Shown: in pieces, positions 12,219 to 45,434 of the stretch
Numbering within the stretch: position 1 is the stretch's first letter
How the letters are laid out: each line of letters begins with the position of its first letter
Assembly (NCBI GenBank): GCA_020851635.1
Contig: JADZCJ010000140.1
Coordinates: forward strand, 62,001-126,000
Direction of reading: 5' to 3'
Length of the DNA stretch: 64,000 nt
Source: Anaerolineae bacterium
GTDB lineage: Bacteria > Chloroflexota > Anaerolineae > UBA4142 > SHND01
Position numbers and translations under genes: made by a program
Notes under the pieces: model-generated
Told to the model about the DNA's origin: nothing
Seen by the model: only the letters and a program-made list of their open reading frames with translations
Databases searched by the model: none

Positions 12219-14213
12219 TTAGGATTTGTATATCACTCTCCCAGTTCCTATCCCATCCGATGGTTCAGCTACCGATTCAAATTGAGGAAACCAAAACGTA
12301 CGCTGCCCATCCAAATCAATCCAATTCGGGCGGTCAATCGTTTCGCGCGGATTAACGATCATCTGTCGCTGTCCAAGCAAGATCGGCGCGACACGACGCA
12401 GACTTGACCGCGTTGGGTCCATCTGCGTCTCAATCTCGCGCGCAATCCCTAACAAGTGTTTCATTCGTTCTGCGCTGTGCGTAACGATGAGGATTCGCAG
12501 CGTTTCATTTGGGTTCTCTGGCAAGATGCGCGCGACGACGCCCGCATAATAGCGCGCGATTTTGCGGCGCATTTTGTCTGCGTTACTGCGCGCGGCGTCA
12601 ATCTCGACGACGAAGTGAATGCGCGCCTCCTCGATTCGTAACACGCCGCGTCCATCCGGCATAAACACGTGCCTTTTGCCATTCAGAGAGAAATAGAGAC
12701 GACTCTCGGTTTCCGAAAGCCATTCCAATTCCCAGCCGCGCGTTCGCACCGCGCATGTCAATTTGACGAATAACATATTTCCCAAGCGCGTGTGTGACCA
12801 TTGCCTGACAAGGCGTTTTGTTTGTTCGGGTGACCAAAGTTTTACTTGGCGATAGCGCGCCAGCGCTGTCCCAAAGCCATCCACTGCCGCCAAATATCGC
12901 TCTCCGAGTTCGGTAGTGACGTAGTATTTGATTTCTCGTTTGCGTTGGAGTTTGCGCTTGTCTGATTCAATTTCCGCCGATTCCGTCAAGACCTCGAACG
13001 CGGGGACTGTACTTCTTTCCACCAAACCCAATTTCGATAATCTCTGAAGACTCGTTGCGATCTGCGATTGGTAAAGATTCGTCAATTGTTCCAATTCTTT
13101 TGCAGAGAGCAGCGGATGCGCAGCGACGAGACGCACGAGTTTGTGATCTGTATCGTTAAGTGTCAGCGCAGTCGCCGCGAGTTCATCCAATTGGACGCCC
13201 GGAGGTTTGCACGCGGAAGCGGGCGCAACAATCACGGCATCATTTCGTTTCACGCGTGCGAGAATCGAATGCCATGAGTGTTCAGATATATCCCCAGCAA
13301 GCCCGCGTTCATCAGCAAGTAAAATTCTATTTTCGCCGGCGTTGATGTTGTACCAAATGGGTTGCGTCGGGTCGCCGCGAGCTGCTTTTACTGTTTCGTC
13401 AAGCGCCATATAAATACTCGGTAGTATGAGGTGGTAACGCAGCGCAATTTGTCGGAACATTGTTACATAGTCATTCAGACGATAGTCATTTTGCGCGATG
13501 ACTGCGAGCATTGGCAATACCGAATTTCCTTCGTTGTCGAAATAACGTGAATCTTTTTGCAGCATCAGCCAGCGAGTAAAATGTTCGCGCTGCGCGGACA
13601 CTTCCACATTCGGATCGTCTATATGGATCAAGAGTCGCAGCCATCGTCCGGTCTCGCGGTGGGATAGACTGACGCCGCCTGTGAATCCAACGCGTTGTAC
13701 ATACTTTCCAACCTTTCCCTCAACTTCGATCTCTTCATTCCACGCGACGACTTGCCATTTCCACAGTGGAGCCGGGACACGCGCCAACGGTTTAAGCGCC
13801 AGCACGTTGCGCCTGCCCACATGGGGGGGATTGAACCCTTCAAGAGTTTTCATCCACCAACGCAGCGGCGTAACCCGTCCCATCGCCAAAACCATCCAAG
13901 CCAGGCGTCCGCGCTGAAAAGCATATTCACGAGCAAGCAGCTTCTTTGGCACTCCGCGCAGTTGCGCCAACGCGTTTACACCTTCCTGCGTAATCGTCCA
14001 CACTCGTTTGAGCGCAAGATCGTCGCGCGAGAATTGAAAACCATGTACATACCCGCGCCGTTTGAGCGATTGTAAAGCAGTCGTCGTGTAGGTTCGCGAA
14101 CCAAGATATTCGCCGAGCCAAAAGGGATCGGCGTACGGGTGTTCGAGAAGTGCGGATAGAACTTTCCGTTCGCCGAGCCACATTGAGCTTGAATCCTTTT
14201 CTGCAATACTCAC
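12219..14213 (-). CDS. Replication-relaxation family protein
   Basis: A 664-residue protein with an N-terminal winged-helix domain (SMWLGERKVLSALLEHP, then LKRRGYVHGF and VWTITQEGVNAL) and a second winged-helix stretch near 350-450 (LSAKELEQLTNLYQSQIATSL..., TELGERYLAA). This is the arrangement of the Replication-relaxation family (Pfam name as I recall it), found on actinobacterial and Chloroflexota plasmids and integrative elements and thought to act in DNA processing or replication of the element. No nuclease tyrosines or HUH motif are evident. It is the last gene of the minus-strand array, with its start overlapping the helicase stop by four bases. It converges on the Mrr-like pseudogene with only 34 bp between. 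Confidence 0.7.
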   Translation of the reverse strand: MSIAEKDSSSMWLGERKVLSALLEHPYADPFWLGEYLGSRTYTTTALQSLKRRGYVHGFQFSRDDLALKRVWTITQEGVNALAQLRGVPKKLLAREYAFQRGRLAWMVLAMGRVTPLRWWMKTLEGFNPPHVGRRNVLALKPLARVPAPLWKWQVVAWNEEIEVEGKVGKYVQRVGFTGGVSLSHRETGRWLRLLIHIDDPNVEVSAQREHFTRWLMLQKDSRYFDNEGNSVLPMLAVIAQNDYRLNDYVTMFRQIALRYHLILPSIYMALDETVKAARGDPTQPIWYNINAGENRILLADERGLAGDISEHSWHSILARVKRNDAVIVAPASACKPPGVQLDELAATALTLNDTDHKLVRLVAAHPLLSAKELEQLTNLYQSQIATSLQRLSKLGLVERSTVPAFEVLTESAEIESDKRKLQRKREIKYYVTTELGERYLAAVDGFGTALARYRQVKLWSPEQTKRLVRQWSHTRLGNMLFVKLTCAVRTRGWELEWLSETESRLYFSLNGKRHVFMPDGRGVLRIEEARIHFVVEIDAARSNADKMRRKIARYYAGVVARILPENPNETLRILIVTHSAERMKHLLGIAREIETQMDPTRSSLRRVAPILLGQRQMIVNPRETIDRPNWIDLDGQRTFWFPQFESVAEPSDGIGTGRVIYKS

Positions 14214-15262
14214 GGCTGTTGATTCAGTTCACCCTGTGGGTCAAAGGCATAATACTGTCCCCACAATTTGAACAGAAACTCGATCCACGTCGGACCGAGC
14301 CGATTCTTTTCAATCGAAAATAGAACTTTTGGCTCGCGATGTTTCCGACGCGCCGATGAGTTATCACGCCAAGTCGGATTGAGCATAATCGCTACGTCGG
14401 GTTCATAGTTGATACTCGAATTGCCCCAGAGGTCTTCGAAGCGCAGACGGTCGCGGCGCAATCCTTCGCTGTCACCCGCCGCCACCGCGAGGATTGGAAT
14501 TCGCCGGCGTAGCGCGAGATTTTTCAATTCCTCAACCACAACCTGCACGGGATTTTTGTTTTCGTGCAAGTGCGGCATCACAGGCACTTTTTGCAAATAG
14601 TCCACAATGAGAACGAGTGAATCCAAACGTCCTTCGGTCTTTACGTATTCGATGTACTTGTCAAAGACTTCGGGTGTTGTTTTGCTCGGATCGCCTTTGA
14701 CGAGATAGAGAAATTCCCAATAGTTGTTGAGGCGTTCGTACGCTTGACGGGCTTTCGGCAATCGGTGGAGAATCTTGTCCAGCCCTTCTTCAATATGTTC
14801 GTCCGTCACAATGGGCGTAATCATTTCGTGCTGAATTTCGTTCAAGGTTACACCCTCGCGTGCGGCGGGATTGGCGACAAAACTTTCCATGCAGACCAAA
14901 CGCTGCTCCAAATAGACGTCGCCATGCTCGTAACAAACATACAACGCCCCGATGCGTTTGCGAGCGCCACTCTGAACGCGGTGCCCAAGTCCCCCGTTCG
15001 CGCCGATCATGGCGATATTGCGCGCAATCTGCAACGCGAAAATCGTTTTGCCGATATTCGGCGGACCGCCAATCAAAATCAAGCTTTCGGGAGTAAGTCC
15101 CTGTCCGATATATTCATCAAGCGGCGAAAATCCTGTTGGCAACGCGCAATAAGATTCAATCGCACCTTCGCGCAGATGCTGATCGAATTTGGATGTGACC
15201 TTGAACAAGCTAGCGGGTGGATCTGTTCCTGCCGGAAGCGTCAACAAAATGTTATTCGACAT
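14210..15262 (-). CDS. DnaB/RecA-like replicative helicase domain protein
   Basis: A 350-residue P-loop ATPase matching the C-terminal domain of DnaB-type helicases. After a short N-terminus comes GFSPLDEYIGQGLTPESLILIGG, Walker A GGPPNIGKT (about 64-72), a CYEHGD segment (the 'SLEM'-like position of DnaB), Walker B LVLIVDYLQKVP, and a late segment RLRFEDLWGNSSINYEPDV (the 'LRGSG.IEQDAD' position). It lacks the DnaB N-terminal primase-binding domain, so it may be an element-specific helicase or an ATPase that acts with ParB. It is 2 bp downstream of parB and overlaps the replication-relaxation gene. Confidence 0.75.
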   Translation of the reverse strand: MSNNILLTLPAGTDPPASLFKVTSKFDQHLREGAIESYCALPTGFSPLDEYIGQGLTPESLILIGGPPNIGKTIFALQIARNIAMIGANGGLGHRVQSGARKRIGALYVCYEHGDVYLEQRLVCMESFVANPAAREGVTLNEIQHEMITPIVTDEHIEEGLDKILHRLPKARQAYERLNNYWEFLYLVKGDPSKTTPEVFDKYIEYVKTEGRLDSLVLIVDYLQKVPVMPHLHENKNPVQVVVEELKNLALRRRIPILAVAAGDSEGLRRDRLRFEDLWGNSSINYEPDVAIMLNPTWRDNSSARRKHREPKVLFSIEKNRLGPTWIEFLFKLWGQYYAFDPQGELNQQP

Positions 15263-15264
15263 TT

Positions 15265-16371
15265 TTATTTCTTCCGATGACGACCGGGTCGGTTATCGCG
15301 ATCGTGTGTACGTGCGAATTCAAAAGTGCCATCTTTGCGCCGTCGTCTGGCATTTTGCACGCGTCGCCTACGACTTATACCAGATGCATCACTGCTGACC
15401 GCGTGCTTGCCATTTCCATTTACAAGTCGGTTGGATTGCAAGAGATGATTCAAAAATGCGCGAGCCCGGGGGTTCCGTTTTAGACACGAGCGCAGCGCGC
15501 GTTTGTATGGTTTCACTTGATCCTTACTGCGTCCAATGGTCAAGGCACTTGACAAAAACATGTCAGCCCATTTTTCAGGCGTATCCGTCGCGCGGGATGA
15601 TTTGGCTTTTTCGCGTTGACCTGTGATGAATTTGCGAACAGCTTGCATTTGTCCCTCAGGTTCTTTAAATTTCAATACGCCGCGCAATGCGCGCTCGGTT
15701 AAGCCGGCCTCTTGTGCTAATTTCAGGGCATCGTCACACAGGGTCAGAAGCGACAAAAATTGTCGCACGCGCCGTCCCGTGATTCCGTTCTCTTCTCCAA
15801 CACAATCTTCCGCCTTCCCCCGTTTCATCTCTGCATTTTCTTCGAGAACTTGTGCGATACGGTCCGCCAACCCGCGCGCCATTTCAATCGGCGAAAACTC
15901 GGCGCGCTGAACATTTTCCGCCATGCGCCTTTGAAGAGTCTGCTGCTGTGCAGTTGCAGTGGCAGGCTTTGGGGCGATAATGGCGTCTATGTGCGAATAA
16001 TCGGAATCACCACGCTCGATATGCAGAATGAGATGTGCCAGCCAACGCCGTTCGCCCATCTCGATCACATATCGCCTTCTTTCATCGGGATACACGCGAA
16101 TCGGCGCGAGCTGTCCCACTTGCTTAATCGAAATCGCCAGATCATCGAGCCCATTCAAAAAACTCGCCAAACCATTTTGCGTCTCGGCGCGGCTCCGCAA
16201 TTCCTTTAGCAGTGCGCGCGCGTTCATTTCTTCCTTTACGGCAAGCGTCAAGTCTTTCGGCAATCGCTTGCGTGGTTGGTCAGGATCTGGATAAATCTGA
16301 TTAATCGGGATTCGTACGATCTCTTGTTTCTTTTGCATAAATAGTTTTTGGCCTTTCTGTGCAATTAGCAT
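15265..16371 (-). CDS. parB: ParB/Spo0J-family partition protein
   Basis: A 368-residue protein with the ParB N-terminal CTPase/clamp domain: IPINQIYPDPDQPRK (about 22-36), an insertion, then IKQVGQLAPIRVYPDE, EMGERRWLAHL (C-motif/box II region) and ENVQRAEFSPIEMARGL, followed by the HTH (GITGRRVRQFLSLLTL). The C-terminal ~70 residues are very basic (RRRRVQNARRRRK) and probably bind DNA without specificity. No parA lies next to it; the CpaE ATPase 26 kb upstream in the array is the only ParA-like protein. A second in-frame ATG at 16338 would remove 11 residues and leaves the domain intact. No obvious parS-like 16-bp palindrome was seen nearby. Confidence 0.85.
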   Translation of the reverse strand: MLIAQKGQKLFMQKKQEIVRIPINQIYPDPDQPRKRLPKDLTLAVKEEMNARALLKELRSRAETQNGLASFLNGLDDLAISIKQVGQLAPIRVYPDERRRYVIEMGERRWLAHLILHIERGDSDYSHIDAIIAPKPATATAQQQTLQRRMAENVQRAEFSPIEMARGLADRIAQVLEENAEMKRGKAEDCVGEENGITGRRVRQFLSLLTLCDDALKLAQEAGLTERALRGVLKFKEPEGQMQAVRKFITGQREKAKSSRATDTPEKWADMFLSSALTIGRSKDQVKPYKRALRSCLKRNPRARAFLNHLLQSNRLVNGNGKHAVSSDASGISRRRRVQNARRRRKDGTFEFARTHDRDNRPGRHRKK

Positions 16372-16396: not shown

Positions 16397-16999
16397 TCAG
16401 CGCAATCTTGGAACAGTTAGAATCCACCGCCTCCGCGCGCTGGGCTGCCAAATCAAGGCGAACTTGTCCGCGCTCGAAGGTACTTGGAAAAACAATTCAC
16501 CGCGCAGTGTCTGGTTCTTGCCCAAGTGTTTCACGGTCCCTTTATTCAACTTATCTATCTCTTGCCACATGTTGTTTTTGGATGGCGCGTATAGTTCAGG
16601 CGCGTACTCCTCATTGGTTGTGACATCGCGCAGCCAGACGGTAAATGGAAAACCCGTCGCATCTTTCGTCTGCTCGGAGTAATTTGTAAGGGTAAGTGTC
16701 AAGACGAGATATTGAAAACCGCGTTCATCCTGATCAGGTTGTGGAATCGCTTGGGCGTAGATTCTGGCTATGGCAAGTCGGAGCCCAGTATCATCCTGGT
16801 AATAACCCTGCGCGGCATTTTGTATTTGCGGCGTTGGCAATGTGACGAATCTGAGTTCGGGTGTGAGCGTGCTCTTGTTCGCGAGCGTTGGCGTTCTCAG
16901 ATTCGTGAGTGGCACAATCTGTGATTGCGCGCCGCTGATGCACCCCGTCAAGACCGACAAGGAAATGATGAGCAACAGCCAACACGCGTACGCCTTCAT
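16397..16999 (-). CDS. Lipoprotein of the conjugation operon
   Basis: A 200-residue protein with a lipoprotein signal peptide: hydrophobic WLLLIISLSVL followed by lipobox LTGC (Cys19). The mature part is a small beta-rich domain of the kind found in DUF4352-like extracellular proteins (ARIYAQAIPQPDQ..., FQYLVLTLTLTNYS, then FPFTVWLRD). It would be anchored outside the membrane, facing the wall. It lies between the small membrane protein and parB with short gaps, so it probably belongs to the transfer apparatus or protects the donor surface. The function is not known. Confidence 0.7.
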   Translation of the reverse strand: MKAYACWLLLIISLSVLTGCISGAQSQIVPLTNLRTPTLANKSTLTPELRFVTLPTPQIQNAAQGYYQDDTGLRLAIARIYAQAIPQPDQDERGFQYLVLTLTLTNYSEQTKDATGFPFTVWLRDVTTNEEYAPELYAPSKNNMWQEIDKLNKGTVKHLGKNQTLRGELFFQVPSSADKFALIWQPSARRRWILTVPRLR

Positions 17000-17012: not shown

Positions 17013-17231
17013 CTAGCGCGGTGCGATGATCAACGCAATCGCAAACGCGCAGACGGCTGCAGGAAAGAAGAGAATTGGCTCAACCGCCATGTCATTAATG
17101 CCGCATGTTTCAGGCATAATGCGCCGAGCTAAATACAAGCCGCCAATGAGCGCAAGATAAATTGGCACGAATAACACAACTGTCCAAACAATGAGCAGGA
17201 TAGGATTGATTCCATTTTGTGTTTGTGTCAT
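17013..17231 (-). CDS. Small two-helix membrane protein
   Basis: 72 residues with two predicted transmembrane helices (about 11-35, ILLIVWTVVLFVPIYLAL...; and about 52-70, ILFFPAAVCAFAIALII) and a short loop between them. It is 10 bp downstream of the coupling-protein gene, with an AAGGAGAACG ribosome site immediately before ATG. Small bitopic or two-helix proteins of this type often accompany VirD4-like ATPases, but I cannot assign this one to a family. Confidence 0.6.
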   Translation of the reverse strand: MTQTQNGINPILLIVWTVVLFVPIYLALIGGLYLARRIMPETCGINDMAVEPILFFPAAVCAFAIALIIAPR

Positions 17232-17241: not shown

Positions 17242-20199
17242 TTAAGCTTTCTGTCCGCGCTTGCGTCCTCCCTTGCCTACTGTCTTTTGAATTGCTTCCC
17301 CCGATACATCGGTATTGGATGTGTTGTCTGGCGCGCGCAAAGGCGTTGAGCCGGATGACTCGGTAAATGGAAGTTCTGCGTTCGTCTCGTTCCGCGTTTC
17401 CTGATTCAAACTGGTTGCTGACGTAGCGACATTCACAGTGGAAGGGACAACTGCTTGCGCTTGCTCATTGGTTGCGGGGCGACGCGGTGTATTTGTCGCC
17501 GCCCCTAACAACATGCCTTTGACCATTATCATCTCGCGCCCGTACCAGAAATTCCAAAACGCATTTCTCTCGTTCTCAACCTCGTTCACGGGGCGAGTAT
17601 AGTGTTGCACGCGCGCGCGAATTTTCGCGGCGATGTCGTCGTTTTCCTGCGCGGGCTTTTCAGTTTCGACATGGATGATCGGCAGCCGCGTTTTGCCGAT
17701 CGCCGTCTTGATATAACAGCAGTGCCGCTCAAGATTGATGATGTCGGTTGCATCCACTTCGTCGTCGAGCTCGTGGCGCAGCACGTCAGCATCATCCGCG
17801 GAGGTTTGAAAGACAAACAGAGTGCTGATGTTGGAGAGGATTGATGCGCGCAGCGTCGTACCCAATTCATCCAATTGCTTTAGCGCCTGTGTTGCCAGAA
17901 CAAAGCTCGCACCCATCTTTTGAAGTTCCGCGAGCAGCGCGGGATAGTCCACCCCAGGCAGCGATTGAAACTCATCAATGATGACCAGCACTTTGGCACG
18001 CTTGGACGGATCGGCAATCCGCATCTGCTCGCCGATCGCAAAATTGATGTTGTCCAACAAGATCGAACCGAGCAGCCCGCCCGCGTCGGGACCAATGATT
18101 CGATTCGCGGTGTTGACCAGAAGAATTTGACGCTCGGTCAAAGCGTCTCGTAAATTCAGTGTAGACGACGATTGCCCCACAATGCGCCGAATGACATCAT
18201 GTTCTTCAAATCGATGAATTTTCGTCAAAACCGGATTGACTACCTCGACGCGCATGTAAGGAGGCATCTGTTCGTAATGCACGCCCCACCATGCCAGCAC
18301 ATCATTTTTCCGCACAAACTTCGAAAGCAGCTTTCGTCGGAACGGCTCAAATCCAATCAGATTCGAAATATCAAGCAGTGTAAATTGCTTTTCGCCCGCC
18401 GCATACAATTTTTCGTTTGCCTCAATCAGCGTTCGCATCACATAGCGTAGCGCATCCTCCATACGTGGACCCCAATAGTCTTTCCAAATCAGCTTTCCGA
18501 CATGGACAAGATTTTCAATGACCGCGTATGCCGGTCGCCCCTGTCCCATGTCCAACAGATTGATGCCAATGATGCGTTTGTCGTCGCTAAAATCCAGATA
18601 TACTGTGTTGTCCACTTTGATACGCGGCACCATTCCCAAAAGTGCGCGCACCAAATCGCCGTGTGGGTCAATTACCACAACCGCCATGTCACGTTCCATT
18701 GCCGAGCGTGCAAGATGAGCCATCAGCGTGCTTTTTCCCTGCTGAGTCTTTGCGACGATAAAAGTATGACGGTCAAGAACCTCATGCGGCAAATGTACGG
18801 GAATGTCGCGCCCGTGATGGACGGAATGTCCAATGAGTACGCCATCGGCGACGAGATCGGGGCGCGGCGGTAGCAGTTTTTTGGAAAGTTGCCGCGCGAC
18901 AAGCGGGACACCTTCGCCTGTCGGCAGATGCCACAGTGATGCAATTTCCGCGATGTTTAGCCGAGTGACGCGCCCGGTGAATTCTTGCCACCATGACCAT
19001 CGCTCAACATCCAGCGCACAGGGGTTAAATCTTACGTACGTCCCTTCAAGCGCGTTACCACTCGCAAGATTGTATTGTCCGTAGCCGCGCATTAGATTGT
19101 CGAGACGTGCTTGTGCCGTAATTTGATTTGGCGCAGATGCACTTAGACGCAGAGCAACATCGAAGGCAGGAACGCTGATCTTGCGCTGCACCAACGCTGG
19201 GTCCATGTTACGATCGCGCGCAAGCACGTTGTAGAGAAACATTGCGCCGATGAGTCCAATAGCAAAAAAGATACCAGCTGCAATTAGGCCGAGCCAGTTG
19301 TGCTGCACAAACGCGGTAAATGCCCACAAGCCCAAGCCCAAAACAAATACAAAGCTGATGCCAGAAGCAATATGTTCGAGTCCACTGCGGGTCTTGGGAG
19401 TTTCTCCAGAAATCGCCTCGTCAATCCTCCGCATCGATCCTTGAAAGCGGTCTGACCAGTTGAGCGGTGCGGGCGCAAGGACGATTTGTGCCAAAACGTT
19501 TTCGCCCGGCTCTATCTGTCCGAAAGCACCCAAGAGAGCGCGCATTGGGTCGGATTCCGCAAAATCTCCATCGCGATAGGTGCGAAGCGGCAGTTGCACA
19601 CTCCGTCGCAGATGCATCCGCACTTGTGAGACGGTTGCTCCCATGAGACACGCTGGATCAAGTTCGGGCGGTAGTGAGGCGAACTGCGCTTGCTCGTACA
19701 CCGATTGGATCTGAGATTGAATGTGCTTGATGCGCACGCGTGGGGCGCGCACCAAAAAACGACAGCCGTGCGAATCGGCGGCGAGCTCGAGGGAAAAGAC
19801 TCCGCTGCCCAACAAACTCCCCAGCAGCGTTTCTGCTTGCAGTGCGTCGACGCGATTGTTGCGAGGGGGGATCACCTCAATCAACATTAGCCCTTCGGGC
19901 TCCACGCGATGCCAGCTTGGTTTCCACAATCGTGCTAAAATATCGGCATCGTCGCGAATGGTTCGGTTATTGAGGTCAAGCCGCGCGTCGTCACCGTTCA
20001 GGCTCGGATCACCTTGAACACTTTGCGGATTCGATACGGCATCGCTTGATGTGCTTTTGTTCGGAATTGTAGAAGTAGCAGTTGGCGATTCAGTCCGAAT
20101 GAGTTCTTGCCCACAGCACCAAAAATTCAATCTGCTCGCATCCGCAGGTCGGTAATCTGTGCCGCAGTGTGTACAACGATATATAACACTCGAGCTCAT
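17242..20199 (-). CDS. Type IV secretion coupling protein (VirD4/TraD-like ATPase)
   Basis: A 985-residue protein built as follows: an N-terminal zinc-ribbon-like motif (CTHC ... CCGQE, residues 9-31), a beta-rich domain, two transmembrane helices (about 270-315), then a HerA/TraD-type motor domain. Walker A AKTQQGKST is at about 480 and VVVIDPHGDL follows it; Walker B VLVIIDEFQSLPG is at about 740, followed by the VLATQALKQL motif. The last ~110 residues are a low-complexity tail ending in basic KGGRKRGQK. Such proteins bring the DNA-protein substrate to the conjugation channel. The double zinc-ribbon start is unusual. It lies directly downstream of the winged-helix gene and so would be controlled with it. 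Confidence 0.85.
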   Translation of the reverse strand: MSSSVIYRCTHCGTDYRPADASRLNFWCCGQELIRTESPTATSTIPNKSTSSDAVSNPQSVQGDPSLNGDDARLDLNNRTIRDDADILARLWKPSWHRVEPEGLMLIEVIPPRNNRVDALQAETLLGSLLGSGVFSLELAADSHGCRFLVRAPRVRIKHIQSQIQSVYEQAQFASLPPELDPACLMGATVSQVRMHLRRSVQLPLRTYRDGDFAESDPMRALLGAFGQIEPGENVLAQIVLAPAPLNWSDRFQGSMRRIDEAISGETPKTRSGLEHIASGISFVFVLGLGLWAFTAFVQHNWLGLIAAGIFFAIGLIGAMFLYNVLARDRNMDPALVQRKISVPAFDVALRLSASAPNQITAQARLDNLMRGYGQYNLASGNALEGTYVRFNPCALDVERWSWWQEFTGRVTRLNIAEIASLWHLPTGEGVPLVARQLSKKLLPPRPDLVADGVLIGHSVHHGRDIPVHLPHEVLDRHTFIVAKTQQGKSTLMAHLARSAMERDMAVVVIDPHGDLVRALLGMVPRIKVDNTVYLDFSDDKRIIGINLLDMGQGRPAYAVIENLVHVGKLIWKDYWGPRMEDALRYVMRTLIEANEKLYAAGEKQFTLLDISNLIGFEPFRRKLLSKFVRKNDVLAWWGVHYEQMPPYMRVEVVNPVLTKIHRFEEHDVIRRIVGQSSSTLNLRDALTERQILLVNTANRIIGPDAGGLLGSILLDNINFAIGEQMRIADPSKRAKVLVIIDEFQSLPGVDYPALLAELQKMGASFVLATQALKQLDELGTTLRASILSNISTLFVFQTSADDADVLRHELDDEVDATDIINLERHCCYIKTAIGKTRLPIIHVETEKPAQENDDIAAKIRARVQHYTRPVNEVENERNAFWNFWYGREMIMVKGMLLGAATNTPRRPATNEQAQAVVPSTVNVATSATSLNQETRNETNAELPFTESSGSTPLRAPDNTSNTDVSGEAIQKTVGKGGRKRGQKA

Positions 20200-22611: not shown

Positions 22612-22631
22612 AACTTGTATTCCTCGCCGCT

Positions 22632-24626: not shown

Positions 24627-24629
24627 ACA

Positions 24630-25070: not shown

Positions 25071-25088
25071 ACTAAAGCGTTGACATGA

Positions 25089-34268: not shown

Positions 34269-34288
34269 CGGATTTCTTTTTGCCGTTG

Positions 34289-34323
34289 TTGTACGCTGTA
34301 CAAAAGTTTTGTACAGCGTACAA
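34289..34323. promoter_or_regulatory. 35-bp double palindrome, operator candidate
   Basis: The arms 34289-34305 and 34307-34323 are perfect 17-bp reverse complements separated by one G. Each arm is itself TTGTAC-N3-GTACAA (N3 = GCT or AGC). It fills most of the 55-bp gap between the SAF-domain gene and the TadB/C-like gene. The same core occurs at 20642-20658. As RNA it could fold into a hairpin, but the absence of a U-run argues against a terminator. Confidence 0.65.
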
Positions 34324-36237: not shown

Positions 36238-36269
36238 ATCATCTTCCTTCGCACTCGTGCTTGTTGTAC

Positions 36270-37490: not shown

Positions 37491-37952
37491 CTACCGTTCC
37501 CACCATGAGCGCCACGTTTCGATACGCGACCAGCGAGTTGCTTTCAGAGGCACTGCGCCGCCGGGGTGAAAAAGCTGCACCATCGGAATGTCGTTTACCT
37601 TCATGGTGTATCCCGTTCGACATCGCACCCACGCGCCGCGATCCCATTTCCCTTGAGGCACAACTGTCAAACGTGCCGACGCCGCGCTCAATGAAAAACC
37701 GTTTAGCGTTTCGCGTCCGGCAGTTAGTCCTTGTATTTGCCCGTCATCGCGCCGCAGAGATTCAACTGCCGCGCGGCATGCGTCGTAACTTGCCATGTCG
37801 AGCGCAATGGTTGCATAGATCAAGCGTCCAAAATAAATCAACGCTGCCAGTATAAGGAACAGGAACGGGAGGATTAGTACGAATTCGACCAGCGCCTGCC
37901 CGTGCTCGCCCTCGTTGTCTCGGATTTTTTGGGAACGACACAACACATTCAT
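37491..37952 (-). CDS. TadE-like pseudopilin 2
   Basis: 153 residues with EGEHGQALVEFVLILPFLFLILAALIYFGRLIYATIALDMA near the N-terminus. This is the signature of TadE (G-x-A-x-V-E-F at the start of the hydrophobic helix) and a substrate for the prepilin peptidase at 31908. The outer part has one Cys pair (ACRAAV, VRCRTGY) that could form a disulfide. It lies 9 bp after pseudopilin 1 and 25 bp before pseudopilin 3. Confidence 0.85.
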   Translation of the reverse strand: MNVLCRSQKIRDNEGEHGQALVEFVLILPFLFLILAALIYFGRLIYATIALDMASYDACRAAVESLRRDDGQIQGLTAGRETLNGFSLSAASARLTVVPQGKWDRGAWVRCRTGYTMKVNDIPMVQLFHPGGAVPLKATRWSRIETWRSWWER

Positions 37953-37961: not shown

Positions 37962-38423
37962 TCACCACCACCAAAAATCTGCGCCGCGCTTGCCGACGGG
38001 TCCGCCGTAAAAACGTTCAAGCCGTTGAAAGCTGTGTGCCCGGATCGTGTACGGCAGAGCACCAATGAAAGGCAAGACAAAAGTCTTGTTTGTTTTCACA
38101 TCGCCACGCACGCTTTTACGCGGATCAGTTACGAATTGAATTTTGTATTCATTGGCAAACTGACCGACCGCCGCGTTCAACATGTACTTTGAGCGCGCTG
38201 CACCTTCCGCTGCGCTACCACCGCGTATTGCTGTGAGATATGTGCCGTCGTGAACGGCGCCCGCCGCCGCAGTTTGATTCCACCACACCCAAAAGTACAT
38301 GGCGATTGCGCCGCACAACATCAGGAACACTGCGAGACTCGCCGTCCATTCGATTAGGTCCTGGCCGCGGTTGTCGTTGCGAAAACGGTCAAGCCGTTTC
38401 AGGAACGGAGGAAATTTTTGCAT
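37962..38423 (-). CDS. TadE-like pseudopilin 1
   Basis: 153 residues with NDNRGQDLIEWTASLAVFLMLCGAIAMYFWVWW, a prepilin-like N-terminal helix with Glu at position +5 after Gly, and a periplasmic-type domain rich in Gly and basic residues. The RGQDL(I/V)E motif matches the Flp pilin of the same locus (RGQDLVEYAL), so both should be processed by the same peptidase. It is the first gene after the flp hairpin. Confidence 0.75.
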   Translation of the reverse strand: MQKFPPFLKRLDRFRNDNRGQDLIEWTASLAVFLMLCGAIAMYFWVWWNQTAAAGAVHDGTYLTAIRGGSAAEGAARSKYMLNAAVGQFANEYKIQFVTDPRKSVRGDVKTNKTFVLPFIGALPYTIRAHSFQRLERFYGGPVGKRGADFWWW

Positions 38424-38501: not shown

Positions 38502-38750
38502 TCACTGTCCTGCGGCGGACTGCAACGCGTTGTTTGCTTGCGTCAGCACGTTTTTGATCGTCGTGTAGAGCGCGGTCAAGACCGCTACAACGCCAACGGC
38601 AAATGCGACAATCAATGCATACTCCACAAGGTCTTGGCCGCGGTTGTCGCGGAAAAAACGTTTGGTGTATGAAACCAATTTCGTCAGTGTGAGCAGTACG
38701 TTTGTCCACACGACATTGGCGAGTGGCAAATTTTTCGATATGTGTACCAT
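38502..38750 (-). CDS. flp: Flp-family major pilin
   Basis: 82 residues. A long basic leader is followed by the Flp motif RGQDLVEYALIVAFAVGVVAVLTAL, with Gly38 before the cut and Glu43 at +5, then a short tail typical of Flp/Fap pilins. The leader (about 38 residues) is longer than usual. AAAAAGGAG lies 8 bases before ATG, a strong ribosome site that fits high expression. A hairpin follows the gene. It is the only Flp gene in the window. Confidence 0.9.
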   Translation of the reverse strand: MVHISKNLPLANVVWTNVLLTLTKLVSYTKRFFRDNRGQDLVEYALIVAFAVGVVAVLTALYTTIKNVLTQANNALQSAAGQ

Positions 38751-38847: not shown

Positions 38848-39753
38848 TTATCGAAACAAAAAATACTGTGCGGCAAGAAAAATTCCAGGACCCATTACCG
38901 CGATGCCTATTGCGGGCAGAATCAATCCACCGACTGGGATGACCATTTGGACGCCTGATGCAATTCCGCGCTGTTCCATCTCCTGCAGTGCCTTGTCAAT
39001 CATCACGTTCCCCAGACTGCGAAGAACTTCGGCATTGGATGTGCCGGTGCGACCGCTGGCACGCAAGAGCTCAGCAAGTGTCACAACTTCGGGAATATTC
39101 GGATTTCGCTCTTTCATTTGCTCAAGTGCTTCATCCAGCGTCATTCCCTTTTGCATGTCGGCCGTCACCTGTCGCAACTCGTTGACGAATACTCCACCTT
39201 TGTTGCTATAGGCGAGCTGCTGCGCGGCTTCTCCAAGCGAACCCCCGGCTGCACAGAACACCGCCATCCGATGGAGACTAAATGCCATCTCAAACCGCAT
39301 ATTCTCTTCCCGTTTGCGAATCAGCCGCGCGAGTTGAAAGTCTGGTAGGAACATGCCCACTAGACCCAACCCGAACGCAAGGAATACAAAGCTTGACCCC
39401 GCGATCAGCGATGCAGCGATGCCCACGAGAAACAAAAACAGTGCCATTGCTACTTTCCACGCGTACAAGTCGTACACCGTTGAATAACGTGTGGGATATC
39501 CAGCTGCGCGCAAGCGCGCTTCATCTTTGTCAATGCGACGCAAAAGCAGCGCTAACCGATAGCTTAAGCGTCCGAGCAACGGACCAAACAAACGGTCAAG
39601 TAGTGGTGTGGTGCGAACGACGGGAATCACACCACTCAACGGTTGTCCGCCCGTCGCATCTTTGGCTAGTGCTGACTGTGTAATTGTCCGCCACATCAAA
39701 AAGATTCCTGTTGCACCGGCGAGTGCAATTGCGATGCTGGTAAAAAAATCCAT
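38848..39753 (-). CDS. tadC: Tad platform protein TadC
   Basis: 301 residues of the T2SSF fold: an N-terminal helix, a cytoplasmic domain, and paired central and C-terminal helices (MALFLFLVGIAASLIAGSSFVFLAFGLGLVGMFLPDF, and MVIPVGGLILPAIGIAVMGPGIFLAAQYF). The motif region FSLHRMAVFCAAGGSLGEAAQQLA and VVTLAELLRASGRTGTSNAEVLRSLG is typical of TadC/GspF. With TadB it forms the inner-membrane platform turned by the TadA ATPase. It is 16 bp downstream of tadB. Confidence 0.9.
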   Translation of the reverse strand: MDFFTSIAIALAGATGIFLMWRTITQSALAKDATGGQPLSGVIPVVRTTPLLDRLFGPLLGRLSYRLALLLRRIDKDEARLRAAGYPTRYSTVYDLYAWKVAMALFLFLVGIAASLIAGSSFVFLAFGLGLVGMFLPDFQLARLIRKREENMRFEMAFSLHRMAVFCAAGGSLGEAAQQLAYSNKGGVFVNELRQVTADMQKGMTLDEALEQMKERNPNIPEVVTLAELLRASGRTGTSNAEVLRSLGNVMIDKALQEMEQRGIASGVQMVIPVGGLILPAIGIAVMGPGIFLAAQYFLFR

Positions 39754-39769: not shown

Positions 39770-40711
39770 CTACGTTAACGCTCCGAGTGGGCTCTGTGCT
39801 GCATCCAATGATACGTTTGGCGCGTCTATGTATTCCATCGGCCGCAGAGCTCGCGCTCCCAGACGGTTCATAAAGTAGTACGCGCAAAAGCACAACAAGC
39901 CAATCACAATGAGCGCAATCTGTCCCACGATGCTGGCATAGAATGGGCGCTGCAAGTCCGGCGCGGTTTGGTTCAGCATGAGAATAAAGACAAAGGGTGC
40001 GATGCAAACGATGCGCGCTTCCCATCGTATGCGAACCTGTGCCGTGGCGATGCGCCGCCGCGCGGAGGTCAAACCGCGCACCATTTCGTTCATTGGGACG
40101 AGTACGTCGTTGAGTTTACTATTTTGATGGATCGTCGCGATCAACGCCTCAATCAATCGATCAAAGATCATGTCGCGTCGCTCCGCCGCAACAGTTTGCA
40201 TTGCCTCAACGGTTGGCGTTCCGAGCGCGCGCAGATCGCGCACTTTTTGAAAATCTGCGCGCGCTCCACTTGGCGCGCGTTCGGCAACAAAATCAATCGC
40301 CATGTCCATGCTCAAGGATGCAGCTGTCGCTTGGAGCAACATATCAATCACCGCCGCAATTTCTTCTTGATATTGACGCCGTCGCTTGTCGCGTCGGTCT
40401 TCGAGATACGACCAGTAGCCCGCGATGCCGATGCCCAAGCCCACGACAAAGCCGGTCCACGCGCCAATGCTCAAATACAAAATGAAACCGAGGGCGAGAC
40501 CAAGCATCAGTGAAACGCGCAGGAATTCGCCGGCGGAAAGGTCAAGGTCCGCTTCATCGAGCTTGCGCTGAAGACGCTTGAGAAACGAAGCACGCGGGCG
40601 CGCGCCCTGAATGAGTTGGTGCTGCGGCTTGATCTGCAGGACGAGCGTGAGAATCAAAATCCCCACTGCACCGATAAAGGCAACCAGCACGTTCGGCGCA
40701 TAGAGCATCAT
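39770..40711 (-). CDS. tadB: Tad platform protein TadB
   Basis: 313 residues. The order is helix (VLVAFIGAVGILILTLVLQI), a cytoplasmic domain, helices near 85-125 (GLALGFILYLSIGAWTGFVVGLGIGIAGYW), then EEIAAVIDMLLQATAASLSMDMAIDFVA and HQNSKLNDVLVPMNEMVRGL, followed by two C-terminal helices. This is the standard TadB arrangement. Its start overlaps the tadA stop (ATGA), and tadC follows after 16 bp. Confidence 0.9.
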   Translation of the reverse strand: MMLYAPNVLVAFIGAVGILILTLVLQIKPQHQLIQGARPRASFLKRLQRKLDEADLDLSAGEFLRVSLMLGLALGFILYLSIGAWTGFVVGLGIGIAGYWSYLEDRRDKRRRQYQEEIAAVIDMLLQATAASLSMDMAIDFVAERAPSGARADFQKVRDLRALGTPTVEAMQTVAAERRDMIFDRLIEALIATIHQNSKLNDVLVPMNEMVRGLTSARRRIATAQVRIRWEARIVCIAPFVFILMLNQTAPDLQRPFYASIVGQIALIVIGLLCFCAYYFMNRLGARALRPMEYIDAPNVSLDAAQSPLGALT

Positions 40712-42132
40712 GCATCCCTCCCGGCAAAAGCACCTGCAATCCGTTTGCTTTGACGCGGCAAAAACGATTTGGTGTCAATGCCGTATTGGATAAAGCGCTG
40801 CATCAAGCGTTCGGGGAGCGGGCGGAGTGAGCGCACCAATTCATCCTGTTCGATTGTGAAAATGAGATCGCGCGTCACGTTGATGCCTTCGGCGCGTCCC
40901 TCCAACCCCGCAATTTCGCGGACGAATCGGCGCGGCGGATTCCGCGTTTGTCCCAGAAAGATGACAAGGTGAAACCCGCGGGCAATCCATTCCGCGAGAT
41001 AACTCGGGTTAAAGTTTTGTGCCTCGTCCGCCAGCGCGCAAAGCTGCAAAAGCCGCGCAATGGCGTCCGTCGCCGAATTGGCATGCACGGTCGTAATTGT
41101 GCCTTCATGTCCGGTATTGTTCGCCATCAACATGTCGAAGGCTTCGCCCCCGCGCACCTCGCCCAAGAGGATGCGATCCGGGCGCATCCGCAGTGCGTTC
41201 GCCACTAACTGGCGCTGCGTGATGGGGCGCGCGTTCTCGGATGTGTCTTCCCGCACCGTGAGATACTGCACGTCGTCAATTTTCAGATCGAGCTCGCGGG
41301 TGTCTTCAATCACCACAATGCGTTCGTCTGGATCGAAAATGGTGGCGAGGACATTAATGAAATTCGTCTTGCCTGTACCCGTGCCGCCGCAGACCAGGAT
41401 GCTCATGCGCGCTCGAACGGCGGCTTCTAGAAACTCCGCCGCTTCCGGCGTAATCGACCGCAGCTGGAACAAGTCCGCCATCCGCCGCGCGACCAGCCGA
41501 TGGCGGCGAATGGTGATGGAGGGACTCGGCTCCGCGATGGGACTGATGACGACGTTGATCCGCGCACCGTCCGGCAGCTTGGCGTTCAAGATCGGATTCA
41601 TCAGGTTGATCTGGCGACCGGTTGGTGAGACGAGGCGATTGATCTGGTCGAGCACTCGGTCGTGGTCGAGGTCCAACTCTAAGAGGTTTACTTTTTCCTT
41701 GGTGCCGTTTGCCCGCATGAGCCACAACTGTTCGATCCCATTCATGATGATTTCTTCGACGCTCGCGTCTTCGATATAGTCTGTGAGAAACCCCATGCCT
41801 GCGATGTCGTTCACAAGCTGGCTCAGAATTGTGGGCAGGTCGCCTTCGAGGGTGTGTGCCGCCTGCAGGCGCGCCTTGCGGTTGAACTCGTCAATCGCCC
41901 ACATTACGACGCGGCGCACTTCGTCCTTTTTGAGCGGCCAATTGACCCCCTTCAAGTGGGCGTATTCCTCATCGAGCTTGAGGCGCGCAATTTTGAGCAC
42001 CATGTCATAGGGGCGCGCTTCTGGATCGGCGCTTTGCAAGTTGGCTTGCACAGCGAGGGCAAGTGCACTCGCGGCATAGTGACGCGCAGGCGGCGGTGGA
42101 GGAGGTCGTGTCGGATAGCTGGGCTGAGTCAT
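40708..42132 (-). CDS. tadA: Tad secretion ATPase TadA (CpaF)
   Basis: 474 residues of the GspE/VirB11 family. After a Pro-rich start comes the N-terminal domain, then VCGGTGTGKTNFINVLA (Walker A, about 248-256), VVIEDTRELDL (Asp box), MRPDRILLGEVRGGEAFDMLMANNTGHEGTITTVHA (Walker B with the His box). All catalytic residues are present. It drives Flp pilus assembly from the cytoplasmic face of TadB/TadC. It could in principle also serve as the VirB11-type ATPase of the conjugation half, which has none of its own. Confidence 0.95.
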   Translation of the reverse strand: MTQPSYPTRPPPPPPARHYAASALALAVQANLQSADPEARPYDMVLKIARLKLDEEYAHLKGVNWPLKKDEVRRVVMWAIDEFNRKARLQAAHTLEGDLPTILSQLVNDIAGMGFLTDYIEDASVEEIIMNGIEQLWLMRANGTKEKVNLLELDLDHDRVLDQINRLVSPTGRQINLMNPILNAKLPDGARINVVISPIAEPSPSITIRRHRLVARRMADLFQLRSITPEAAEFLEAAVRARMSILVCGGTGTGKTNFINVLATIFDPDERIVVIEDTRELDLKIDDVQYLTVREDTSENARPITQRQLVANALRMRPDRILLGEVRGGEAFDMLMANNTGHEGTITTVHANSATDAIARLLQLCALADEAQNFNPSYLAEWIARGFHLVIFLGQTRNPPRRFVREIAGLEGRAEGINVTRDLIFTIEQDELVRSLRPLPERLMQRFIQYGIDTKSFLPRQSKRIAGAFAGRDA

Positions 42133-43679
42133 GGTTTGTTTCCTTCCCCCAACACGAGCCAGCGCACACCCGCCGTGAGGCTATGCAGCGCTCCGCCGCC
42201 TTTTTTGGGGGGCTTCTTGCCGAGTTTCCCGCGACTCGTCCAAATGTCGCGCGTCGGCGGGTAAATGGTCGAGGCGATACTGATGATGCTGTCGGCGACC
42301 TGCCCACGGTGTTCCACGATCAAGGGTTTGCCGCTGTTCACGATATTGCTTACGGCAGGTCCGCCATCGGGAATGGTCGCGATTTCGGGCATGTCGAGCG
42401 CTTTGACAATTTCGGCACGGCTGATGCCTGATGATTCGTGGTAGCGGTTGATGATGAGTCGGAATTTCGAGCGTGCGAGTTTGACATGCTTGAAGAGCGT
42501 ATCGAGTGCCTCTTTCGTGGCAAGGATGCTGGAGCGATCCGGTGTGACGACGACGTACACGTAATCGGCGAATTCGAGCGCAGCAAGATGCATGGGCACG
42601 TTGGCGTCTTGCCCGATGTCCACGATGACGAAATCTTCAAACTGCCGCAGCGACGCGACGAGCTCGCGGAAAAATGCGCGCCCATTTTCTTCGATAAAGC
42701 ATTCATAACCGCCCATGTGCTGGCGCGGGATGCCGACCAACAGCTTGAGCTGCGATTCGCCGTAGCGAAAGAGGTGTGCATCCACTTCGTCGGCAGGCAG
42801 GATGGGACGCTGTCCGAGCATCCCGGTCGCGGACGGTTGAATCGGACCGTAGCGCGAGTTGAGCATTGCGCGATCTGCAAGGGCGCTGATATTCCTGCCG
42901 AGCTGGGTTTGCGGAATGCTCTGGTAGAAATGATGATGATCGTTCCCACCCGCCATATTCGCATCCACGAGGACAGTCCGTCGGTTGCCGATCACTCCGA
43001 GCGCGACTGCCAGGTTACACGCCACTAGTGTTTTGCCGACACCGCCTTTCGGTCCCCAGACGACCATCACGCCCTGCTGCCAGCCGCGCGCTGCAATGAC
43101 CTGTGCGGTTCGGCTGTCAATTTGCGGGATATAACCAACGCTCGCGCGATAGCGCAGCGCTTCCTGCACACCGACATGGCACTTGGCGACGAGCTCGTGC
43201 GCCGAGCGTTCGGTGAGGGGACGCGTGACCAAATCAACCGCCCCCAGTTGTTTCATCGTGTTGGCTAGCCCGCTATGCGGCGGTACAGCGGCGATGGTGA
43301 CGATAGGTTTCTTGGGATAAATCCACAGGCGCTGCACATCTTCATATTGAAAACTGCGCGTTTCCGGATCCACAATGACCGCGTCGGCATCGCCGTCAAT
43401 TGCTGCTTGATACAGGTTGACGCCGTTGTCACACCAGCCGATCGTTTTGAGACCGAGTTCGGGATGTTCGGTGTACATGCGATCCAAGATACGGAACTCG
43501 TTGAATTCCTGCGTGGCAATAAGCACGCGCAGGCTGTGTTCGGGCGCGGCGTAGACGGTCGAGGGTGCGTTGTGTGGGAGATCCCCATTCCTTGGCAGGA
43601 CGAGTACTGGTGGTCGCGCAGGGGATAAAGGGACACCAGCGCGCGTTGAGGCGTCACCGGGCGCGTTACGGAGTGACAT
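42129..43679 (-). CDS. cpaE: Pilus localisation ATPase CpaE/TadZ
   Basis: 516 residues. The N-terminal 190 residues form a receiver-like domain (LRVLIATQEFNEFRILDRM..., DADAVIVDPE, VTIAAVPPHSGLANTMKQLGAVDLVTRPL) with Asp at the position of the phosphoacceptor region, though not clearly phosphorylatable. A ParA/MinD domain follows: VVWGPKGGVGKTLVACNLAVALG (deviant Walker A, about 205-218), TVLVDANMAGG and FVIVDIGQDANVP. TadZ proteins place the pilus machine at one site in the cell. It is the only ParA-like protein in the element, which is of interest given the lone ParB downstream. Confidence 0.9.
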   Translation of the reverse strand: MSLRNAPGDASTRAGVPLSPARPPVLVLPRNGDLPHNAPSTVYAAPEHSLRVLIATQEFNEFRILDRMYTEHPELGLKTIGWCDNGVNLYQAAIDGDADAVIVDPETRSFQYEDVQRLWIYPKKPIVTIAAVPPHSGLANTMKQLGAVDLVTRPLTERSAHELVAKCHVGVQEALRYRASVGYIPQIDSRTAQVIAARGWQQGVMVVWGPKGGVGKTLVACNLAVALGVIGNRRTVLVDANMAGGNDHHHFYQSIPQTQLGRNISALADRAMLNSRYGPIQPSATGMLGQRPILPADEVDAHLFRYGESQLKLLVGIPRQHMGGYECFIEENGRAFFRELVASLRQFEDFVIVDIGQDANVPMHLAALEFADYVYVVVTPDRSSILATKEALDTLFKHVKLARSKFRLIINRYHESSGISRAEIVKALDMPEIATIPDGGPAVSNIVNSGKPLIVEHRGQVADSIISIASTIYPPTRDIWTSRGKLGKKPPKKGGGALHSLTAGVRWLVLGEGNKP

Positions 43680-45048
43680 GCGACATTCTCCTTCGACGAA
43701 TCACGCGAATGACGATGATTCCCAAGATCAAGAAGAGGAACCCGCACACCAGGGGAACAACTAACGCCATGACATCCAGCCCCGTCGGCAATTGATTTGG
43801 CTGCGGTACCGTATTATTCGATGGCGCGGGCGGAAGGCTGTTGCCATTGTTGTTTCCGCTACCGGTTCCCGCGAGGGTGGTTGGCGGGGGCAGTTCTGCA
43901 ACTTGCGTTGCTGTAGGATTTGTGCTCGAGTCATCTGTAGTTGTCGGCGTTGGTGAGATTTGGACAGTGGTTGGTGCGGCAATGGGATTGGTGGTTGGTG
44001 CGGCAATGGGATTGGTCGCGCTCGTATTTGCGCCGGAAGGAGCACCGTTGTTTGCAGTTGACGAATTGAGTGCCGCTGTCAGTTCTTGGCGCTCCTGGAT
44101 CATGAAGGCGAGCACATCATTCCAGGACATGCCGAGGGTTGGATCGTCTTTTTGTGCAGCGAATTCGGTTTGTCCTTCCTGTACCGGCAGCAGCAGTACA
44201 TGAACTCTGCCATTGTCGATCCCGAAATTGAGCAGTTCCGCGCTGTCGCGGGGAATGGAGACCGTGAGGGACGTGATCGCCCCCTCGATGTAAGCGGGCT
44301 GTGGAGGTGAATTGCCTGAGTCGTCGCCAAAGCCTGCACTCGCATAGGTGGGGTTCGGAGTTTGCTCGAACGAAACGGCGAGGACGGGCAGGGATCGAAT
44401 CACCGCTTTGGTTACCGGCAGATTCATTGCCTCGCCCACCAGCGGTCCGCTGATGATTCCCGACGGAAAAATGGACGAGGTTGGAAATGTGCCTTGCGTC
44501 GGCGTAATGACAGCCGAAGGCCCAAACCCGAAACTCGCCTGATTGCTGTCCTGTCCACTCAAAATCTCGCCGAACCGATTCGAGGTGCCGCCGGTGAGAT
44601 TCCCGGGAGCCATGCTGATGACCAAATCCACGTAATCGCCGATGACAATCTGGGTAGGTGAGGTCTTTGCATCTACGGGGATCACTGCCGCCACGCGGTT
44701 CGGCTCATTCAGTGCCAGCGCCAGGCGTTTCGACGCGAGAGGATTTCCTGCCGTGACGATGGCGGATTTGCGGAGTGGTTCACCGGCAAAGATCGGCGTC
44801 GTGACAAAGCCGCCGACGTACTGATCGAGTTCTTGTTTTTCTACGAGCGTCGCCAGCACCTGTCGGTTGAGATGTTGGGCGTCTAGCCCCAACATATTCT
44901 GGTCGAGCGGCGTGTAGGGCGGAATGTCGCGCAAGGCGACGACCACCTGCGCGGGCGGCGGTGCGAGGAAATTTCCCAGGAGCAAGAACCCGATAAAGGC
45001 GCCAAGGGCGAGCAAGATGCCAATCATAAAGGTGGCTGATTTGAGCAC
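43666..45048 (-). CDS. cpaB: Flp pilus assembly protein CpaB (RcpC)
   Basis: 460 residues from GTG 45048. This start is chosen because AAAAGGAG lies 8 bases upstream, whereas the longer ATG at 45108 overlaps the previous gene and has no such site. A transmembrane helix (FMIGILLALGAFIGFLLLGNFL) is followed by a SAF domain (VVVALRDIPPYTPLDQNMLGLDAQ) and an RcpC-type domain (AVIPVDAKTSPTQIVIGDYVDLVI). A long Pro/Thr-rich stretch includes a duplicated NPIAAPTT unit, and a second C-terminal helix (LDVMALVVPLVCGFLFLILGIIVI) ends in RRRR. The second membrane anchor is unusual for CpaB. Confidence 0.9.
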   Translation of the reverse strand: MLKSATFMIGILLALGAFIGFLLLGNFLAPPPAQVVVALRDIPPYTPLDQNMLGLDAQHLNRQVLATLVEKQELDQYVGGFVTTPIFAGEPLRKSAIVTAGNPLASKRLALALNEPNRVAAVIPVDAKTSPTQIVIGDYVDLVISMAPGNLTGGTSNRFGEILSGQDSNQASFGFGPSAVITPTQGTFPTSSIFPSGIISGPLVGEAMNLPVTKAVIRSLPVLAVSFEQTPNPTYASAGFGDDSGNSPPQPAYIEGAITSLTVSIPRDSAELLNFGIDNGRVHVLLLPVQEGQTEFAAQKDDPTLGMSWNDVLAFMIQERQELTAALNSSTANNGAPSGANTSATNPIAAPTTNPIAAPTTVQISPTPTTTDDSSTNPTATQVAELPPPTTLAGTGSGNNNGNSLPPAPSNNTVPQPNQLPTGLDVMALVVPLVCGFLFLILGIIVIRVIRRRRMSHVTP

Positions 45049-45056
45049 AGAAAATT

Positions 45057-45064
45057 CTCCTTTT
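45057..45064 (-). promoter_or_regulatory. Shine-Dalgarno site that sets the cpaB GTG start
   Basis: AAAAGGAG on the minus strand, 8 bases before GTG 45048. It is among the best ribosome sites in the array and argues for GTG 45048 rather than an upstream ATG. Confidence 0.7.
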
Positions 45065-45092
45065 GCAGGAATTCCGGGTTGTGGTGCGTCGC

Positions 45093-45434
45093 TTAGTCGG
45101 GATGCCACTGCCCATTGACTTGCGCCAGCAGGCGCTGCGTTGCCTCGCGCAGATTCAATAGCAGTGCCGAGAGCATCTGCAATTCACTCCCTGTCATATC
45201 GCCCAGCGTTGCCTTGTCGAACTGAGCCAGTCCTTGAGTAATGGATTGCATGGCGAACCCGTAGGGACCGCCCGCTGCGCGCTGCGCCAACGCACGTGCG
45301 ATCGGTGTGGCGAGATGCGGGTAATAGCGGCGCACGAGGTGCGTCCATTGCGCGATGGTTTCAGTTCGAGCATTTTCGAGGTTGGGCGGCGCAACGATTG
45401 GGTTGTCACCTTGCACGAGATCCGTCGCGTTCAT
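45093..45434 (-). CDS. First gene of the array, unrecognised helical protein
   Basis: 113 residues from ATG 45434. The protein is soluble, wholly helical and Ala/Leu-rich (TIAQWTHLVRRYYPHLATPIARALAQRA, MLSALLLNLREATQRLLAQV), with no known motif. Upstream extensions of the frame run through the terminator hairpin and are rejected. It lies 24 bp downstream of the A/U-run of an intrinsic terminator, so it would be made only when transcription reads through. It is 44 bp from cpaB and may be a Tad accessory factor. Confidence 0.55.
   Translation of the reverse strand: MNATDLVQGDNPIVAPPNLENARTETIAQWTHLVRRYYPHLATPIARALAQRAAGGPYGFAMQSITQGLAQFDKATLGDMTGSELQMLSALLLNLREATQRLLAQVNGQWHPD

Follow-up and report, generated by a model that had tools for sequence, protein, structure and literature searches.

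Can a Tad/Flp pilus and a conjugation machine encoded in one run of genes be parts of a single mating apparatus? The question is raised by a 64,000-nt stretch from an Anaerolineae bacterium of the Chloroflexota (hereafter the window; positions 62001-126000 of the 277-kb contig C140 of the source genome, G000), in which minus-strand genes from 45434 down to 12219 specify first a Tad pilus and then a type IV secretion system (T4SS). We propose that this array is probably the conjugation region of a 266-kb integrative and conjugative element (ICE) inserted at a tRNA-Gly gene, and that the element uses its Tad pilus for mating contact.

To our knowledge, how a monoderm donor grips its recipients is poorly known. 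In the monoderm systems described, surface adhesins are said to be relied on and a major T4SS pilin to be lacking (PMC12102498). If a Tad pilus is kept next to one clade of T4SS throughout a phylum, it would give monoderms a mating pilus, and such a role would explain the tad loci on actinomycete conjugative plasmids. The pairing of Tad and T4SS genes, which recurs across the phylum, suggests an unrecognised mating apparatus in one-membrane bacteria.

Composition of the array

A previous reading of the letters alone (the sequence-only reading) had described a one-direction array of 32 genes with a largest gap of 97 nt. Its direction and content were confirmed, but 31 intact genes were found, many of them overlapping, and the largest gap is 462 nt (24627-25088, between VirB4 and a VirB4 N-terminal-domain-like gene); the other gaps do not exceed 97 nt. 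The 462-nt interval holds what look like the remains of a gene, which were probably counted as intact; they have no counterpart in contig C114 of the congener G003, where the interval measures about 130 nt.

24630-25070 (-): broken open reading frame (ORF), two out-of-frame pieces, apparently of a single small gene

The full Tad set running into VirB/PrgI genes, as it had been described, was recovered by Pfam in both blocks. Judged by genes only, every component expected of a Tad/Flp system is present: TadA, TadB, TadC, Flp, TadE, CpaB, CpaE and prepilin peptidase. The Tad block consists of a complete core (CpaB, CpaE, TadA, TadB, TadC, Flp and three TadE-like proteins) and a second, ATPase-less core formed by a second CpaB and the genes at 33411 and 32653.

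43666-45108 (-): CpaB-like (SAF), PF08666 E=2e-6, with homologues
42129-43679 (-): CpaE/TadZ-like ATPase, PF01656 E=1e-8, with homologues
40708-42132 (-): TadA pilus ATPase, PF00437 (T2SSE) E=9e-44, NCBIfam TIGR03819 E=2e-69
39770-40711 (-): TadB, PF00482 E=3e-6
38848-39753 (-): TadC, PF00482 E=1e-13
38502-38750 (-): Flp-type major pilin, motif RG/QDLVEYALIV, homologues in the same place
37962-38423 (-): TadE-like minor pilin, PF07811 E=0.037 (below cut-off), conserved position
37491-37952 (-): TadE-like minor pilin, PF07811 E=3e-12
37019-37465 (-): TadE/TadG-like minor pilin, PF07811 E=1e-5, PF13400 E=1e-4
34324-34932 (-): second CpaB-like (SAF), PF08666 E=1e-4
33411-34343 (-): second TadB-like, Pfam negative, tblastn match to the G017 neighbour of TadA2
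32653-33573 (-): second TadC-like, its G017 homologue PF00482 E=3e-7
31908-32651 (-): prepilin peptidase (A24), PF01478 E=6e-7
30885-31898 (-): TadE-like pilin with an SH3_3 domain, PF07811 E=5e-6, PF08239 E=3e-6

TadA2, a second TadA-type ATPase, is absent from the window and present in G017, G019, G008 and G014. Since in G017 and G019 it lies between the corresponding second-core genes (in G017 with T2SSE E=4e-24 and a T2SSF partner), it has probably been lost from the window's array.

The T4SS block follows, with a predicted channel, a wall hydrolase and a coupling protein.

30237-30881 (-): VirB2-like, two pilin-like units, matches the neighbouring VirB2-like gene family
29786-30205 (-): VirB2-like pilin, PF04956 (TrbC) E=0.016 (weak), conserved place
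26433-29738 (-): VirB6-like polytopic protein, Pfam negative, conserved membrane part
25832-26386 (-): PrgI/VirB3-like, PF12666 E=8e-9
25089-25877 (-): VirB4 N-terminal-domain-like, NCBIfam NF045975 E=2e-5 (below cut-off)
22632-24626 (-): VirB4 ATPase, PF12846 E=1e-11
20668-22722 (-): M23 cell-wall hydrolase, PF01551 E=3e-24
17242-20199 (-): VirD4-type coupling protein (TrwB/TraG), PF10412 E=7e-14, PF12696 E=2e-5

The names VirB2-like and VirB6, given already by the sequence-only reading, are carried by conserved position, Pfam giving a weak score for the former and none for the latter. A VirB4-N-like gene adjoins VirB4 in much of the phylum. Against the CD1110 family (NF045971, a Firmicutes ICE family) the window's VirB4 scored 233.9 bits (E=3e-69), below the cut-off of 325 for membership. 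The M23 hydrolase gene is a fusion: its C-terminal region corresponds to a gene that stands apart in G017, G019 and contig C71 of the source genome.

The element around the array

The entire window is enclosed by a 265.9-kb integrative element (C140:4365-270282). This element is bounded by a 43-bp exact direct repeat of the tRNA-Gly 3' end (C140:4365-4407 and 270240-270282). An exact search over the contig's first 146 kb gave no second tRNA end; the right end was found at 270 kb. Two features mark the left end.

C140:4336-4408: tRNA-Gly(gcc), downstream of an acetyl-CoA synthetase gene
C140:4802-5842: tyrosine integrase, PF00589 E=2e-32, about 0.4 kb from the tRNA-Gly

With up to one mismatch allowed, the motif AAGACGACATTCTC has four copies next to the left end and five next to the right, and the rest of the 277-kb contig has none, as expected for integrase arm sites. 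The tRNA-Gly repeats and these end-restricted motifs place the window in the interior of the element. Between the tRNA-Gly and the integrase (C140:4540-4790), four palindromes TTTGTCAGCCTGACAAA alternate with the arm motif.

The mobile unit is the 266 kb between the repeats, and not the array, which had been taken for it. An integrase beside the attachment site, bounding direct repeats, a PF13814 relaxase, PF10412 and PF12846 were found together, as in an ICE. Genes for a beta clamp and a primase are also part of the element, as are genes of the DnaE, RadC and UvrD types (by sequence-based judgement). In the window's VirB4 clade, the Chloroflexota T4SS are part of integrative elements of very large size.

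In the congener G003, element right ends lie just past a homologue of the ATPase gene at window 46778-48211, with further integrase-like genes behind them; on contigs C282 and C3 a right end, a copy of the attachment site and another integrase-like gene are found. This arrangement apparently reflects tandem elements or integration at the same tRNA-Gly. Given these right ends, the 160 kb from the corresponding position in the window's element to its right end are taken as cargo or a second element.

Linkage of Tad and VirB4 across the Chloroflexota

The order noted in the window recurs in independent genomes of the phylum: it was also found in G000:C71, G017 and G019 and, in pieces, across G003 contigs. 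A chance neighbourhood or an assembly chimera was ruled out, since separate assemblies show the same order and complete plasmids carry the pairing. Conservation of the Tad half in relatives lacking the conjugation half, together with a separate promoter for the genes from 30881 downward, would, according to the sequence-only reading, make the two mere neighbours. All six order-level genomes with a close VirB4 (G000, G003, G012, G014, G017 and G019) have an element-type TadA, as do G008 and G011, which gave no VirB4 match (43-93% identity overall).

For the phylum, 400 genomes were scanned with a VirB4 profile, and up to ~100 kb around the matches was then read. In the close VirB4 clade, Tad genes were upstream on the same strand in 12 of the 12 scan loci with enough contig and, with five more from the order, in 17 of 17. 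The distance between TadA and VirB4 was 10-66 kb in the loci showing TadA (66 kb in G160:C17); at G160:C18 and G163 only TadE-type genes were reached before the contig end. In a remoter VirB4 group, none of eight loci had Tad upstream (within ~33-59 kb). The Tad-linked or unlinked label switches once on the VirB4 tree, and distances for TadA and VirB4 were correlated (Mantel r=0.87, p=0.0001, 16 pairs), with trees that agree, their details being unsure owing to long branches in some rows. As judged from these loci, linkage and orientation are the phylum-wide constant, and the nearly gap-free array is a trait of the window's relatives only.

In a Chlorohelix plasmid (Chloroflexota), PrgI adjoins a Tad block and VirB4 is ~42 kb away. 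The viral contigs searched gave no relative. The G000:C71 locus (~2.3-29.3 kb) is a second, diverged Tad-T4SS array copy, which ends beside ordinary-looking chromosomal genes.

A predicted MOBC-type relaxase

The last gene of the array had been read as a replication gene, downstream of ParB and helicase genes. Pfam confirmed the latter two; the former belongs to a relaxase superfamily.

12219-14213 (-): MOBC-superfamily relaxase with winged helices and a PD...ExD...K domain, PF13814 E=4e-9

A published classification of integrative elements places PF13814 ("replication-relaxation", Rel_PF13814) in the MobC relaxase superfamily (PMC5357655, Table 1). The core of MOBC relaxases is of the PD-(D/E)XK type, and TraX of pAD1 has a winged-helix N-terminus as well (PMC12857230). 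In an alignment of the window protein with its relatives, PD-x(n)-ExD-x(n)-K was kept in nearly all copies reaching the region, and the gene is predicted by family and motif to encode a MOBC-type relaxase. On these two grounds the array would encode relaxase, coupling protein and VirB4 together. A PF13814-type gene also lies beside VirD4 in most relatives.

The predicted structure of this protein was poor (mean predicted local distance difference test score, pLDDT, 52), so that the fold search was weak: PDB matches were winged helices, with restriction-enzyme-like folds appearing weakly. An HUH relaxase was rejected as a candidate, with no PF03432 in six genomes and a simple HUH-type regular expression matching one antisense ORF in the element's left part.

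Promoter and leader RNA

Upstream of the first gene, a promoter and a structured leader were found.

45710-45738 (-): promoter TTGACC-17-TATAGT, best minus-strand match of the scan
45435-45709 (-): structured leader RNA, roughly 250-280 nt across copies, with two invariant blocks
45456-45513 (-): intrinsic terminator (candidate attenuator), directly upstream of the first gene
45093-45434 (-): first array gene, small protein of no assigned role, tblastn matches in most relatives

The promoter (TTGAC-N17/18-TATAGT) is kept in the five aligned copies (the window and G003 C188, C282, C91 and C260), and the ATGAAC start at 45434 is conserved in other array copies. Folding of the leader was stronger than that of shuffled sequences (z=-5.2); of the 61 pairs in its consensus, both partners have changed in 15 (five sequences only). 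The terminator hairpin and T-run are present, with compensatory changes, in all five. A model of the leader 3' part gave six strong matches across G000 and G003, and the five examined all stand at array starts. Weaker opposite-strand echoes of the leader hairpins in this search were ignored. Beyond the genus the model gave a single marginal match, in G017, and the leader is therefore confined to the window's subfamily. Neither leader nor window matched Rfam.

The leader is a candidate new RNA attenuator of the conjugation array. Promoter-like sites inside the array were about as frequent as in shuffles (consensus-site scan). Terminators and antitermination have been described for long conjugation operons, as with conAn of pLS20 (PMC8955417), and by this precedent regulated read-through at the array leader is a reasonable hypothesis.

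Comparable systems

The sequence-only reading knew of no described system joining the two machines, which is too strong: tad plasmids of Cutibacterium acnes (PMC5696575) and the pili of PAPI-1 and IncI R64 (PMC12857230) are precedents. The C. acnes linear plasmids p09-9 and p15.1.R1 are the nearest prior report, with a monoderm host and a tad locus downstream of VirB4-, FtsK- and TcpC-like genes; they differ in being actinomycete plasmids, a functional link was left open by the authors, and no relaxase-to-pilus array was described (PMC5696575).

PAPI-1 and R64 are the working analogues. PAPI-1 of Pseudomonas aeruginosa is integrated and combines VirB4 and VirD4 with a type IV filament machine that is essential for transfer, but its host is diderm, the pilus is type IVb and not Tad, and the T4SS is of another lineage (PMC12857230). 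In the text consulted, no single pilus-plus-T4SS array is described for it. R64 is a conjugative element with a T4SS and a type IV (IVb) mating pilus; its Dot/Icm-like T4SS and pilus are in two clusters, and the pilus augments liquid transfer only (PMC12857230).

The MPF-FA/FATA T4SS of Firmicutes (MPF, mating-pair formation; pCF10, CD1110-type ICEs) share PrgI, VirB4, wall hydrolase and VirD4 with the window, whereas they have surface adhesins in place of a Tad pilus (PMC12102498) and a VirB4 ~25% identical to the window's. The pairing is also seen in complete actinomycete plasmids of Kitasatospora, Embleya and Nocardioides (pNOCA01), in which VirB4/VirD4- or PrgI-type and TadA-TadB-type genes are co-oriented within ~20-30 kb, with a PF13814-type gene in two; gene order differs, and sequence similarity to the window is remote. 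The Embleya plasmid (NZ_CP108778) reads PrgI-VirB4-VirD4-PF13814-type and then CpaB-like-TadA-TadB-TadC, and that of Kitasatospora (NZ_CP107965) has on one strand a PF13814-type gene, ATPases, a C40 peptidase, TadA-TadB-TadC-TadE and an A24 peptidase. The current unified T4SS review does not mention Tad.

A proposed mating pilus and the alternatives

The sequence-only reading had proposed mating-pair attachment as the function of the pilus. This gains support from the ICE setting, the relaxase superfamily, the single conserved promoter and leader and the phylum-wide pairing. Once transfer is switched on, a single promoter with its terminator-bearing leader would drive the array. The Tad pilus of the element, with TadA as its motor, TadB/C as its platform and Flp and TadE-type proteins as its pilins, would extend from the donor, and its retraction would hold the recipient. 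The wall hydrolase and a VirB6/PrgI/VirB4 complex with VirB2-like subunits would then open a channel, into which VirD4 would feed DNA cut by the MOBC-type relaxase.

Several points weigh against this proposal. Transfer, pilus fibres and a shared transcript are predictions from the genes, and because the T4SS already has VirB2-like genes, the Tad pilus might serve another purpose. G008 and G011 have an element-type TadA without a VirB4 match (in G008 the Tad block is cut by the contig end). The single-unit organisation held in the window's clade only; outside it, opposite-strand cargo is common between the modules (though in GC-rich genomes the ORF calling used yields too many antisense ORFs), so that a single operon is not the rule. 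No true empty site turned up, the congeners' sites being occupied, rearranged or cut by contig ends. The C71 copy looks decayed, with an internal in-frame stop in its PF13814 gene.

Adhesion is the classical role of Tad pili, a chromosomal-type Tad is also present in most genomes of the class, and several distant elements carry cargo between the Tad and T4SS modules. The pilus could thus be adhesion or biofilm cargo that benefits the host, its linkage reflecting co-mobilisation and not a transfer function. We consider this unlikely: cargo normally turns over, yet the Tad block, its order and its orientation to VirB4 were kept at all 17 testable loci, the trees agree, and in the window the block sits inside the same leader-controlled array as the T4SS.

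More doubtful still is a role of the Tad machine beyond mere attachment, either as a component of the DNA conduit, which has been proposed for PAPI-1, or in DNA uptake. Against it, the window encodes a wall hydrolase together with VirB6-, PrgI- and VirB2-like proteins, which would suffice for the usual monoderm channel. In its favour, PAPI-1, which depends on its type IV pilus in every mating, has clear T4SS homologues only in VirB4 and VirD4 (PMC12857230), few other channel parts are annotated on the actinomycete Tad-T4SS plasmids, and a tad locus is required for transformation in M. luteus (cited in PMC5696575). Very improbable here is a secretion system that no longer serves conjugation but protein delivery or contact-dependent interaction. 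Such a role has been argued for the T4SS of Patescibacteria, a related monoderm type mostly without relaxases (PMC12102498); the window's array has a MOBC-type relaxase gene (beside VirD4 in most relatives), and the integrase and the element ends are present.

Beyond the use of the Tad pilus for mating contact in this one element, we tentatively suggest, with rather less assurance, that Tad-linked T4SS form a distinct monoderm mating-pair-formation class (Chloroflexota ICEs and plasmids, Actinomycetota plasmids) in which Tad would be a required retractable mating pilus, the window's subfamily being switched on by leader-RNA antitermination.

Other genes of the array and the element

The remaining array genes are as follows.

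36270-37022 (-): conserved array protein of no assigned role, homologues in arrays of the order
34945-36339 (-): Cys/Trp-rich exported protein, 36-86% identity in 8 copies, Cys and Trp invariant
20212-20622 (-): small winged-helix-like protein, PF13601 E=0.002 (below cut-off)
17013-17231 (-): small membrane protein, Pfam negative, one homologue, beside VirD4/ParB in G019
16397-16999 (-): DUF4352 lipoprotein-like, PF11611 E=2e-5 (just below cut-off)
15265-16371 (-): ParB-like, PF02195 E=1e-8
14210-15262 (-): DnaB-like helicase (DnaB_C), PF03796 E=2e-20

The Cys/Trp-rich product is a candidate pilus-tip or surface protein; its structure prediction (mean pLDDT 36) was too poor to use. The array is flanked by rve-domain transposase genes or, in one case, a transposase fragment (window 8587-10078 and 48135-48686), and type I restriction genes (HsdS, HsdR) lie at window 985-7189, within the element. 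A large cargo-like region at C140 110-270 kb has, by sequence-based judgement, P-type ATPase-, MerR-like and metal-resistance-looking genes.

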